From NCBI GenBank assembly GCA_001785175.1, contig MFSY01000089.1, forward strand, positions 510 through 5,710: a stretch of DNA of 5,201 bases, written 5' to 3'. The notes beneath the pieces were generated by a model that worked only from the letters and a program-made list of their open reading frames with translations, was not told where the DNA came from and ran no database searches. The position numbers were made by a program, and so were the translations under genes. Positions 1 to 5,032 of the stretch are shown one piece after another. Within the stretch, counting starts at the first letter, position 1. Every line of letters begins with the position of its first letter. Origin of the DNA: Candidatus Muproteobacteria bacterium RIFCSPHIGHO2_01_FULL_65_16 (lineage in GTDB: Bacteria; Pseudomonadota; Gammaproteobacteria; Acidiferrobacterales; Sulfurifustaceae).

Positions 1-390
1 CTGCTAACCATCAAGGGCATCGCACAAACCAGCGCCATTGCCCTGCTGGGCGAATTGCTGTTACTGCCCGCGGGACTGACCCACAAACAATGGGTCAAGT
101 TCGCCGGCCTCGATCCGCGCCACTTCCAATCCGGCACCAGTATCGAGAAACGCGCGCGTATCTCCAAGTCCGGCAACCGCTACATCCGTCACGCGTTGTA
201 CATGCCGGCACTCAGCGCCAAGGCCCACGACCCCCATGTTAAGGCCTTCTTTGAGCATCTGCTCGTCAACGGCAAGACCCCGCTGCAGGCGGTCTGTGCC
301 GTCATGCGTAAACTGCTCCACGCCATCCATGGAATGTTGCGGAACAACCAACCGTTCGACAACACGCGTTTCTATGCCATCCCGGTCTAG
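1..390 (+). CDS. IS110-family transposase, C-terminal part (5' end outside window)
   Basis: The frame is open from the first base and ends with TAG at 388-390, giving 129 residues of the C-terminal half. Residues 1-20 (LLTIKGIAQTSAIALLGEL and following) look like the helix-hairpin-helix segment seen in the IS116/IS110/IS902 transposase domain. Next come FAGLDPR and QSGTS, then RISKSGNRYIRHALY, the family's typical block. Ser44 (codon 130-132) in QSG fits the position of the catalytic serine of the Tnp domain; the RuvC-like DEDD domain would lie to the left. The family carries out RNA-guided recombination through a bridge RNA. The visible part has no frameshift or internal stop, so the copy may be intact. 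It converges on the oxidase operon. Confidence 0.88.
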   Translation: MLTIKGIAQTSAIALLGELLLLPAGLTHKQWVKFAGLDPRHFQSGTSIEKRARISKSGNRYIRHALYMPALSAKAHDPHVKAFFEHLLVNGKTPLQAVCAVMRKLLHAIHGMLRNNQPFDNTRFYAIPV

Positions 391-2028: not shown

Positions 2029-3626
2029 TTCACCACCGGCGGCGTCGTGAAGCTGTGATACGGCGGCGGCGAGGGCAGCGTGAACTCCAGCCCCTCCGCG
2101 CCTTCCCACACCCGGTCGGTGGCGCGCGCGCCCCGGCCGCGGATGCTCTGCACGATGTTATAGAGGAACAACAACTGCACGGCGCCGAGCAGGAAGGCGC
2201 CGACGGACGAGATCACGTTGAACTCGGTGAATCTGAGCGCGTAGTCCGCGACGTGGCGCGGCATGCCGTCCAGCCCGGCGAAAAATTGCGGTACGAAGGT
2301 GACGTTGAAGAAAACCAGGGTCAGCCAGAAGTGCAGCCGGCCGAGCTTCTCGTCGTACATGTAGCCGGTCATCTTGGGCAGCCAATAGTAGGCCGCCGCC
2401 ATCATCACGAGAACCGCGGTCCCGAAAAACGGGTAATGGAAGTGCGCCACCACGAAATAGGAGTTGTGGTACTGCGCGTTGGCCGCGACGTCAGGCAGCA
2501 CCAGGCCGGTCAGCCCGGCGATGCCGAACATCGCGATGGCGCCGAGGGCGAACAGCATCGGCGTCTCGAAGGTCATCGAGCCGCGCCAGATCGTGGCGAT
2601 CCAGCAAAAGATGAGCACCGCGGTCGGGATCGAGACCGACATGGTGGCGTACATGAAATACAGGTTGCCCGCGAGCGGCATGCCGGAGGTCAGCATGTGG
2701 TGCGCCCAAACGATGGAGCCGAGAATCCCCACGCCCCAGAACGCGTAGATCTGGGCCTTGTAGCCGTAGACCGGCTTGCGCGCGAACGTGGCGAGGATGT
2801 GCGGGAGCAGGCCCCAGAACGGCAGCACCACGATATAGACCTCGGGGTGGCCGAAGAACCAGAAGATGTGCTGGAACATGATCGGATCGCCGCCGCCGGC
2901 GGCGATGAAGAAGTGGGTGCCGAAGTGGCGGTCGGTCAGGAGCATGGTGACCACGGCCGACAGCACCGGCAGCACCAGCACGATCAGGACGGCGGTGACC
3001 AGCCACGACCACACGAACAGCGGCATCTTCGTCAGCGTCATGCCGGGCGCGCGCATGTTGAAGACGGTGACGATGACGTTGATCGCCCCCGACACCGACG
3101 AGATACCCAGCAGATGGACCGCCAGGATGGTGAAGTCCATGCCGATCCCGGCCTGCAACGACAGCGGCGAGTTGTGCAGGGTCCAGCCGCCGGCCGCGGC
3201 CCCGTCGCCGACCCCGAAGAAGGCCAGGAAGAACGGCAGCAACAGCATGACCGCCGCCGGCGGCAGGATCCAGAAGCCCCAGTTGTTGACGCGCGGCAGC
3301 GCCATGTCGGGCGCGCCGATCATGAGCGGGATCAGGTAATTGTTGAGGCCGGTGGCGGCCGGCATGATCGCGCCGAACACCATGACCAACCCGTGCAGGG
3401 TGACCAGCTGGTTGTAAAGGTTGGGGTCCAGCACTTGCAGGCCGGGCAGCAGCAGCTCGGCGCGCACCAGCAGGATCATCACGCCCCCGACGAGGAACAT
3501 GACGAGGGCGAAGGTCAGATAGAGCGTGCCGAGGTCCTTGTGATTGGTCGTGGTCAGCCAGCGCCAGAGGCCGGTCGGATGCCCGTGCTGCGTGTCGTGT
3601 GAAGCCGCGTTTGTCGCCGCCGTCAT
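2025..3626 (-). CDS. coxA: Cytochrome c oxidase subunit I (haem-copper catalytic subunit), K-channel residues missing
   Basis: This 533-residue, roughly twelve-helix protein is the O2-reducing core. Haem a ligands are His78 (TLHGLVMVF) and His397; haem a3 ligand is His395 (VVAHFHY); CuB ligands are His260, His309 and His310 (WAHH). Tyr264 of GHPEVY is the cross-linked tyrosine. The D-channel is intact: Asp107 in IGAPDMALPR, the nearby Asn residues, and Glu262, which mark an A1-type oxidase. Length is normal. Unusual are Leu338 in PTAVLIF where A-type enzymes have the K-channel Lys, Pro275 at the channel Ser, Asn383 and Asn388 at two conserved Asp near the Mg site (YHNSY instead of YHDTY), and His458 in GMPRH for GMPRR. 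The start has a strong AAGGGGAG box; coxB ends 12 bases upstream. Also named ctaD. Confidence 0.97.
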   Translation of the reverse strand: MTAATNAASHDTQHGHPTGLWRWLTTTNHKDLGTLYLTFALVMFLVGGVMILLVRAELLLPGLQVLDPNLYNQLVTLHGLVMVFGAIMPAATGLNNYLIPLMIGAPDMALPRVNNWGFWILPPAAVMLLLPFFLAFFGVGDGAAAGGWTLHNSPLSLQAGIGMDFTILAVHLLGISSVSGAINVIVTVFNMRAPGMTLTKMPLFVWSWLVTAVLIVLVLPVLSAVVTMLLTDRHFGTHFFIAAGGGDPIMFQHIFWFFGHPEVYIVVLPFWGLLPHILATFARKPVYGYKAQIYAFWGVGILGSIVWAHHMLTSGMPLAGNLYFMYATMSVSIPTAVLIFCWIATIWRGSMTFETPMLFALGAIAMFGIAGLTGLVLPDVAANAQYHNSYFVVAHFHYPFFGTAVLVMMAAAYYWLPKMTGYMYDEKLGRLHFWLTLVFFNVTFVPQFFAGLDGMPRHVADYALRFTEFNVISSVGAFLLGAVQLLFLYNIVQSIRGRGARATDRVWEGAEGLEFTLPSPPPYHSFTTPPVVK

Positions 3627-3638: not shown

Positions 3639-4805
3639 TCAGCGCAAGGATTTGACCAGCGCCGGCTGGACCGTGTCGCCCATGTTGTTGCCGAAGGAAT
3701 TGCGCTCGTACGTCGCGACCGCGGCGATGTCGGCGTCGGACAGCGTGTTCTTGAACGCCTGCATCGCGGTGCCCGGCTTGCCGTTCATCACCCGGTCGAG
3801 ATGGCCGTCCTTGATCAGACGGCCGTTCATGTCCACGAACGGGCCGTTGACGATCTTGCTCCCCGCGAGCGCCGGGAACGCGCCCGGAATCCCCTTGCCG
3901 TTGGGCTGATGGCAGGCGGCGCAGATCTTGTCGTAGACGCCGCGGCCCTGGCGCGTCAACTCGTCCTTGGTCCAGACCTTGCCCGCGGCGGCGGCGACCT
4001 TGGCGGTCTCGCCCTTCTTCCGCGCCACCCACTGCGCGTATTGGTCCGGCGACACCGCCTCGACCACGATCGGCATGAACGCGTGCTCGCGGCCGCACAG
4101 CTGGGAGCACTGCCCGCGGTAGACGCCGGGCTTTTCGATTTTCATCCAGGTCTCGCGCAGGAAGCCGGGCACGGCGTCGCGCTTGACCCCGAACGCCGGC
4201 ACCCACCAGCCGTGGATGACATCGGTGGACATGATCAGCACGCGCACCTTCTTGCCGACCGGCAGCACCACCGGATTGTCCACCTCGAGCAGGTAGTTCT
4301 CGCCCTTGGGCGCGCGGTTGGATATCTGATCCTTCGGCGTCGCCAGCATGCTGACGAACTTTATGCCTTCCTCCGGATATTCGTATTGCCATTTCCACTG
4401 ACTCGCGGTCACCTTGAGCACCATGTCGGCGTCGGTCCTGGTGTCCTCCATGGTGGCGGCGGCGTGATAGGCGGGGATGCCGATGACGACGTAATCAATG
4501 ATAAGCAGGCCGACAAACGGCGCGATCACCCACAGCCATTGGGCGCGCGTACCGGGCTTCGTGAACGCGGCCGGCTTGTAGCCCCGGCTCCGGCGGTGCT
4601 TGACGAGGGAATAGACCATGATCCCCAGGGCCGCGAGGAACAGGGCGATGATGATCAGCATGAATTCGTTGTGCACCCGCATGGTGTCCCGCGCGAGCGG
4701 CGTGACCGCCTCGGGGAGATTGAAGGAATACTCGGCGCGGGTGAGAACTGGCAGGGCCGCAAGCAAAATTCCGGTAATCAAGGACGGCGATTTTTTCTTG
4801 AACAT
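3639..4805 (-). CDS. coxB: Cytochrome c oxidase subunit II with fused C-terminal cytochrome c domain
   Basis: This 388-residue protein accepts electrons and feeds CuA. A Sec signal peptide is visible (KKK, hydrophobic core, likely cleavage after TRA at 22-24). Two membrane helices follow (about 48-68 and 90-112), then the periplasmic CuA cupredoxin domain: QWKWQYEY (136-143) for docking and electron entry, and CuA ligands His198 (DVIHGWW), Cys233, Cys237, His241 and Met244. Residues 280-388 form a class I cytochrome c domain with CAACH (295-299) and probable distal Met348, so this is a caa3-like subunit, longer than plain subunit II. Odd features: CSQLC replaces the usual CSELC (Gln235 for the Mg-ligand Glu), and Gln89 stands where the K-channel entrance Glu is expected. 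It is first in the operon. Also named ctaC. Confidence 0.96.
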   Translation of the reverse strand: MFKKKSPSLITGILLAALPVLTRAEYSFNLPEAVTPLARDTMRVHNEFMLIIIALFLAALGIMVYSLVKHRRSRGYKPAAFTKPGTRAQWLWVIAPFVGLLIIDYVVIGIPAYHAAATMEDTRTDADMVLKVTASQWKWQYEYPEEGIKFVSMLATPKDQISNRAPKGENYLLEVDNPVVLPVGKKVRVLIMSTDVIHGWWVPAFGVKRDAVPGFLRETWMKIEKPGVYRGQCSQLCGREHAFMPIVVEAVSPDQYAQWVARKKGETAKVAAAAGKVWTKDELTRQGRGVYDKICAACHQPNGKGIPGAFPALAGSKIVNGPFVDMNGRLIKDGHLDRVMNGKPGTAMQAFKNTLSDADIAAVATYERNSFGNNMGDTVQPALVKSLR

Positions 4806-4998: not shown

Positions 4999-5032
4999 AA
5001 AAATAAAAAAGCCCCCTCCGTGTGGAGGGGGC
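4999..5032 (-). terminator. Intrinsic terminator of the gene to the right
   Basis: On the minus strand a perfect 9-base-pair stem (GCCCCCTCC / GGAGGGGGC) with a four-base loop is followed by TTTTTTATTTTT. The T-run is on the left only, so it acts on leftward transcription. It stands 58 bases after the stop at 5091 and isolates the cox promoter from that upstream gene. Confidence 0.92.

Follow-up and report, generated by a model that had tools for sequence, protein, structure and literature searches.

A proteobacterial clade of A-type cytochrome oxidases without the K-channel lysine and with linked changes in subunit II

Introduction

A-type haem-copper oxidases possess two proton channels with essential ionizable end residues, and a K-type path persists in the B- and C-type enzymes (PMC8239185, PMC12901375). 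Of the eight protons, one or two are assigned to the K-channel (PMC8079940, PMC8239185, PMC12901375), and in Rhodobacter sphaeroides (Rs) the substitution K362M of its lysine stops the oxidase but not the peroxidase activity (PMC7601700). Within family A, Degli Esposti et al. (2021) infer, under one rooting scenario, seven losses of the K-channel in archaeal oxidases (PMC8239418).

Here we describe a cox operon from Candidatus Muproteobacteria bacterium RIFCSPHIGHO2_01_FULL_65_16, contained in a stretch of 5,201 nucleotides (the window, to which positions refer unless stated otherwise), whose subunit I belongs to a proteobacterial clade without the K-channel lysine. Among the papers listed in searches of a CC-licensed PMC set, none describes this clade or its subunit II signature, and an earlier description is possible.

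Results

A caa3-type operon with an intact active site

The operon lies on the minus strand in the order coxB, coxA, a small open reading frame, cox11 and coxC (Table 1). Its contig, C89, belongs to a draft genome that has 1.7 Mb and is 79% complete. CoxA scores 647.6 bits against the CtaD_CoxA equivalog of NCBIfam (TIGR02891), below its curated cut-off of 670.75. Pfam cytochrome c families match CoxB at residues 284-366, with the motif CAACH, and the enzyme fits the caa3 type, in which a cytochrome c domain is fused to subunit II. The small open reading frame has no match in Pfam or NCBIfam.

Table 1. Genes of the cox operon and residues of CoxA and CoxB discussed here. Rs, R. sphaeroides; Pd, P. 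denitrificans; LF and LB, lysine-free and lysine-bearing rows of the thinned CoxA alignment.
Feature	Position	Strand	Evidence or residue counts
coxC, subunit III	477-1322	minus	Pfam COX3, 131.9 bits
cox11/ctaG, CuB assembly protein	1340-1906	minus	Pfam CtaG_Cox11, 156.5 bits
Small ORF between coxA and cox11, 42 aa read	1885-2013	minus	Open frame
coxA, oxidase subunit I, 533 aa	2025-3626	minus	Pfam COX1, 482 bits
Asp379, new acid in the loop after helix IX (Rs Q403)	2490-2492	minus	D 54/54 LF; 0/38 LB
Cys341 (Rs S365, K-channel constriction)	2604-2606	minus	C 53/54 LF; N 38/38 LB
Leu338 in place of the K-channel Lys (Rs K362, Pd K354)	2613-2615	minus	L 49, M 5 of 54 LF; K 38/38 LB
Thr335 (Rs T359, Pd T351), kept in the window	2622-2624	minus	T 10, L 30, V 14 of 54 LF
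Ser332 (Rs A356, K-channel-lining)	2631-2633	minus	S 54/54 LF; A 34, S 4 of 38 LB
Thr328 (Rs T352), kept	2643-2645	minus	T 53/54 LF
Gln292 (Rs M316)	2751-2753	minus	Q 52/54 LF; M 38/38 LB
Pro275 in place of the K-channel Ser (Rs S299, Pd S291)	2802-2804	minus	P 51/54 LF
Tyr264, active-site tyrosine (Rs Y288)	2835-2837	minus	Y 53/54 LF
Glu262, end of the D-channel (Rs E286)	2841-2843	minus	E 54/54 LF
Asp107, entry of the D-channel (Rs D132)	3306-3308	minus	D 52/54 LF
coxB, subunit II with C-terminal cytochrome c domain, 388 aa	3639-4805	minus	Pfam COX2, COX2_TM and cytochrome c families
Asp104 of CoxB, new Asp in the extended TM helix 2	4494-4496	minus	D in the best 120/120 homologues
Gln89 of CoxB in place of the K-channel entry Glu (Rs E101 of subunit II)	4539-4541	minus	Q 117, G 2, E 1 of the best 120 homologues

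Over ~500 residues, the AF2 model of CoxA (pLDDT 82.0, pTM 0.87) fits onto solved structures of A-type subunit I, confirming an A-type fold. The relatedness is also evident from 46% identity to 1m56_A across the structural alignment and from a position nested among lysine-bearing A-type rows. The enzyme shares with the A1-type aa3 and caa3 oxidases of R. sphaeroides and P. denitrificans the fold, the ligands, the active-site tyrosine and the CuA motif of CoxB. The six histidines that ligate the haems and CuB are intact, and alignment of 54 lysine-free rows bears out the statement of an earlier note on this DNA that all metal ligands are present. The D-channel, called full in the same note, is common to both in seven of the eight residues listed for P. 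denitrificans (Y35, N113, D124, N131, S134, S193, N199 and E278; PMC3084760); the eighth, Pd S134 (Rs S142), is Gly117 in the window and Gly in 40 and Ser in 13 of the 54 lysine-free rows. The two motifs given for nitric oxide reductases, H-X-(Arom)-X-E and H-H-X-(Arom)-(Arom)-X17-E (PMC3084760), are unmatched by the HPEVY and HHMLT of the window. The definition of B-type enzymes by the absence of a D-channel and an alternative K-channel does not fit either, as CoxA has a D-channel. From family membership we infer the haem type and O2 as the substrate.

Loss of the K-channel lysine marks one clade

In an alignment of 203 rows (the window, 120 protein hits and 82 locus frames), position 338 is Leu in 107, Lys in 85, Met in 9 and Val in 2. 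Leu or Met in 116 of the 203 rows rules out chance or a sequence error as the origin of Leu338. The survey of homologues suggested in the earlier note returned a lineage trait. For later counts, row P0002 and the two Val rows were left out and the alignment was thinned at 85% identity, giving 54 lysine-free and 38 lysine-bearing rows. A CoxA tree was built from 72 rows by a quick search with no bootstrap and given P. denitrificans as its root. In this tree, 43 lysine-free rows together with P0119 (Val) form one set (SH-aLRT 100) nested in the lysine-bearing rows, and the window falls within a set of 10 (SH-aLRT 99) with P0003, Gallionellaceae rows and other Nitrosomonadales. The lysine loss is thus a lineage trait of one clade among lysine-bearing oxidases, with hosts in the Gallionellaceae, Methylophilaceae, Sulfuricellaceae and Comamonadaceae and among MAGs labelled Gammaproteobacteria. 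We class the window protein as a derived variant of the A-type, one that departs from canonical A-type enzymes in its K-channel.

The 41 nearest genomes provided 30 loci that were read, 25 of them with Lys; the remaining five come from the window and from four genomes in one other family of the same order. Given this distribution, the operon has likely been transferred. Among the 30 best loci read from 370 genomes drawn from the class, at least four besides the window's own lack the lysine.

Both types occur in a genome labelled Candidatus Accumulibacter, where a lysine-type and a lysine-free coxA lie at 622-2796 and 15636-17351 of one contig (L172), both on the plus strand and ~13 kb apart. 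Accumulibacter aa3 transcripts go up with aeration (PMC6446978); with both types in this genome, the response is unassignable as evidence for the lysine-free one. Two further lysine-free loci, L146 (genome G405) and L152 (G339), from one genus, each have one in-frame stop (TAG and TGA, respectively) in the CoxA match.

Clade-specific changes are enriched at K-channel-lining positions of subunit I

As the earlier note held, Leu338 and Pro275 replace the channel lysine and serine, being aligned to Rs K362 and S299, and Thr335, Thr328 and Tyr264 are retained in the window in both sequence and alignment. In terms of the K-channel set of P. denitrificans (K354, T351, S291 and Y280; PMC3084760), two residues are lost and T351 and Y280 are kept. 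Further differences, nearly invariant in the clade and for the most part confined to it, lie at Gln292, Ser332, Cys341 and Asp379, three of which fall on published K-channel-lining positions; Gln292 aligns with Rs M316, whose pairing across the channel with K362 is one measure of K-channel width (PMC10341450).

The earlier note had named another Lys or acid at the depth of the channel as a finding that would overturn its reading. We scanned CoxA positions 20-499 for charges conserved in at least 80% of the 54 lysine-free rows. The sole one foreign to lysine-bearing relatives is Asp379, which lies outside the channel helices, so that the channel helices of subunit I contain no clade-specific charge conserved to that degree. 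The condition set in the note thus does not overturn its reading, and a replacement elsewhere in this channel can be dismissed. The stretch around Asp379 (residues 378-392) has a pLDDT under 50 in the AF2 model.

The distribution of the changes was then compared between channels. The K-channel-lining set comprised 12 subunit I residues from PMC10341450 and eight added positions (Y288, S299, M316, A319, T352, P358, T359 and K362 in Rs numbering). Clade-specific residues occupy 7 of these 20 positions (S299, P315, M316, A356, K362, I363 and S365), compared with 46 among the other 460 positions (Fisher p 0.0034), and 5 of 18 when K362 and S299 are removed (p 0.033). We take T352 to be a lining position. 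The published 12 positions by themselves include four clade-specific ones. By the identical criterion none of 15 D-channel-lining positions is clade-specific (PMC10341450 lists 17, of which two precede the compared segment); the residue S142, with its mixture of Gly and Ser, falls short of that criterion.

Subunit II lost the entry glutamate and gained a membrane aspartate

The picture drawn in the earlier note, confined to subunit I, is incomplete, in that the clade also differs in subunit II: Gln89 stands in place of the Glu at the K-channel entry, and an invariant new Asp, Asp104, is found in TM helix 2, which is five residues longer than that of lysine-type relatives. We read 138 distinct loci, all picked by similarity to the window or to the kin of its genome; their CoxA has Lys in 116, Leu or Met in 21 and Val in one (L002). 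All 106 readable Lys loci have the entry Glu, and none has a residue in the Asp104 column (10 more are unreadable). By comparison, the 20 readable Leu/Met loci have Gln (19) or Leu (1) at the entry and Asp104 in every case (one more is unreadable). The clade is again one set in the CoxB tree (SH-aLRT 100). In the best 120 CoxB homologues Asp104 is the lone charge in residues 87-112 beyond the helix start (87-89). The AF2 model of CoxB, middling overall (pLDDT 73.1, pTM 0.67), places it in a single helix of residues 87-120 (block pLDDT ~66-77). Two CoxB homologues, P0123 and P0135, have 555 and 585 aa, ~170-200 residues more than the window's.

By helix length, Asp104, 15 residues on from the entry position, would stand ~22 Å above it. 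The distance from the tyrosine to hydronium sites that flank the entry Glu is reported as 19-23 Å (PMC10341450), and comparison of the two distances suggests that Asp104 may lie near the tyrosine's height, provided that the helix is upright.

Two positions on the periplasmic side also vary. The Rs D412 position of CoxA is Asn in 33, His in 17, Gly in 3 and Ala in 1 of the 54 lysine-free rows. Gln replaces the Glu of the CuA loop in the window's CoxB and in 26 of the best 120 homologues. Both are presumably Mg ligands. These substitutions, together with the presence of Asp379 in all lysine-free and no lysine-bearing rows, would suit an enzyme that takes up protons from the periplasm through a remodelled Mg/propionate region with Asp379 and Asp104 of subunit II, moving less charge per O2. 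We consider such uptake unlikely: the CuA-loop Glu is retained in 94 of the 120 homologues, and the low pLDDT of the Asp379 loop means that the model does not fix its location. Periplasmic uptake is, moreover, regarded as excluded in pumping oxidases (PMC8079940).

The clade is under purifying selection

Seven close pairs drawn from the rest of the clade, none of which includes the window, have dN/dS values of 0.029-0.100, indicating purifying selection; one further pair is saturated, and the distant pair of the window and L005 gives 0.27. Together with the clade-wide conservation, these values sustain the earlier view that a dead enzyme is unlikely. An oxidase that is inactive or very slow, or a protein that reduces another substrate such as NO, would accord with the abolished oxidase activity of K362M in the model enzyme (PMC7601700), and each of the 12 other lysine-free genomes has at least one further haem-copper oxidase match. 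We judge it very unlikely in view of that selection, the retention of all ligands, Tyr264 and Glu262, and the failure of HPEVY and HHMLT to match the two nitric oxide reductase motifs (PMC3084760). The operon in Methylopumilus (L007) also speaks against it, going on to SURF1, CtaA and a UbiA-family prenyltransferase. In the window's own genome (79% complete), four haem-copper proteins were found; by eye only that of the window has the whole canonical site, the other three lacking parts of it, and a search for a bd oxidase found none.

The argument that a sole oxidase must work was ruled out for the clade, as the 12 other genomes each have 2-5 PF00115 matches. Many of these matches score ~400 bits and are probably cbb3 oxidases. 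The bd family was matched in 4 of the 12, two of them weakly.

Proton delivery to the active-site tyrosine

The earlier note proposed that the enzyme takes its reductive-phase protons by another route or by the D-channel alone. The other route may be the same channel with a new lining: the channel wall has gained the clade-specific neutral polar residues Gln292 and Ser332. We favour, with a confidence that is evenly balanced, a K-channel re-lined with neutral polar residues that serves the active-site tyrosine without a conserved titratable group. Reductive-phase protons would pass from the cytoplasm to Tyr264 along water held by Gln89 of subunit II, Cys341, Gln292, Ser332 and Thr328, broadly as in the K-channel analogues of B- and C-type oxidases, while the D-channel would retain its usual duties. 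More tentatively, Asp104 of subunit II might act as a proton store or counter-charge.

We prefer this reading because the conserved titratable groups, Lys and entry Glu, are gone and new conserved neutral polar residues have appeared. Polar and conserved inside the channel, Gln292 (52/54) and Ser332 (54/54) are unlike drift in an abandoned channel. Re-lining is further supported by the excess of changes at K-lining over other positions with none at D-lining ones, by the way the two subunits change together (Lys with Glu in 106/106 loci, Leu/Met with Gln in 19/20 and with Asp104 in 20/20), by the single clade in both trees and by the purifying selection. It is also in favour of re-lining that B- and C-type enzymes have working K-channels in which Thr, Ser and Tyr take the place of the lysine set (PMC3084760).

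Several observations count against a re-lined channel. Cys341 is less polar than the Asn of lysine-bearing relatives; the Ser332 residue is also found in 4 of 38 lysine-bearing rows and 11 of 116 Lys loci; the 12 published lining positions by themselves include four clade-specific ones; Asp104 of subunit II and Asp379 are not needed for it; and Rs K362M is reported to inhibit oxidase activity fully (PMC7601700). Gln292 and Ser332 may be conserved for packing, and since all changes trace to one event, compensation and hitch-hiking are indistinguishable.

The channel could instead be closed, given that Leu338 and Pro275 are non-polar and Thr335 has become Leu or Val in 44 of 54 rows. The D-channel would then deliver, via Glu262, all chemical and pumped protons, including those of the reductive phase, in an enzyme whose K-channel has been dismantled in both subunits and which is helped by the new membrane-buried Asp of subunit II. 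We regard this as a possible but distinctly less probable account. The D-channel retains seven of the eight listed residues, with Glu262 in 54/54 rows and no clade-specific change at 15 lining positions, and the decay of Thr335 extends the loss of K-channel hydroxyls in the clade. Against this, the new polar residues inside the K-channel are conserved, and Gly takes the place of the D-channel residue Pd S134 in 40 of 54 rows. A high barrier between the end of the D-channel and the tyrosine has been invoked for A-type enzymes (PMC8079940), and K-channel mutants block haem a3 reduction (PMC12901375).

Comparison with known oxidases

In contrast to A1-type enzymes, the clade lacks the K-channel Lys and Ser and the entry Glu of subunit II, and has Gln292, Ser332 and Cys341 in the channel, Asp104 in helix 2 of subunit II and Asp379. 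It resembles the solved R. sphaeroides mutant K362M (3om3) in being non-polar at the lysine position. K362M, however, is a single laboratory change in a lysine-type channel and is reported to abolish oxidase activity (PMC7601700), whereas in the clade the differences extend over the entire channel, which is under selection. With a re-lined channel, the clade would share with B- and C-type oxidases a K-type path without the A-type lysine (PMC3084760); those enzymes have no D-channel, whereas the window CoxA keeps the D-channel and the HPEVY tyrosine and scores as A-type. The archaeal losses (PMC8239418) are likewise K-channel variants inside family A. The present clade is proteobacterial and nested in lysine-bearing proteobacterial oxidases.

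If the channel is re-lined, a supposedly essential lysine would be replaceable. A selected natural lineage without the lysine and the entry Glu offers a test of which protons need a K-type path, whether a titratable residue is required in that path and whether the tyrosine can be supplied by the D-channel; the two operons on the L172 contig form a natural matched pair. Should the D-channel act alone, the enzyme would mirror the B- and C-type oxidases, which have a K-type path only, and would break the pattern of haem-copper oxygen reductases keeping a K-type path to the active-site tyrosine.

Surroundings of the operon and other haem-copper proteins of the host

A C-terminal fragment of an IS110 transposase (55-390, plus strand) faces the 3' end of coxC, so that the assembly genes usual downstream of the operon are absent from the window. 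At 5000-5032 a GC-rich hairpin and T run on the minus strand resemble, by eye, the terminator of a minus-strand gene past the right end of the window.

A second CoxA-like protein of the same genome (L002; contig C59, 1342-3000, minus strand) has no D-channel Glu (HPATY), also misses the K-channel Lys (PMGVV) and reads GSHM where two CuB histidines (AHHM) are expected; its adjoining CoxB retains the entry Glu. It is perhaps a derivative resembling NO reductase. Two further unusual haem-copper proteins (L003 and L004) lie ~5-6 kb apart on contig C13, the former followed by a heme o synthase gene. For Gallionellaceae, eNOR has been reported (PMC10734462). Matches of similar score and similar spacing on one contig, as with L003 and L004, occur in genomes G041, G042, G044 and G047.
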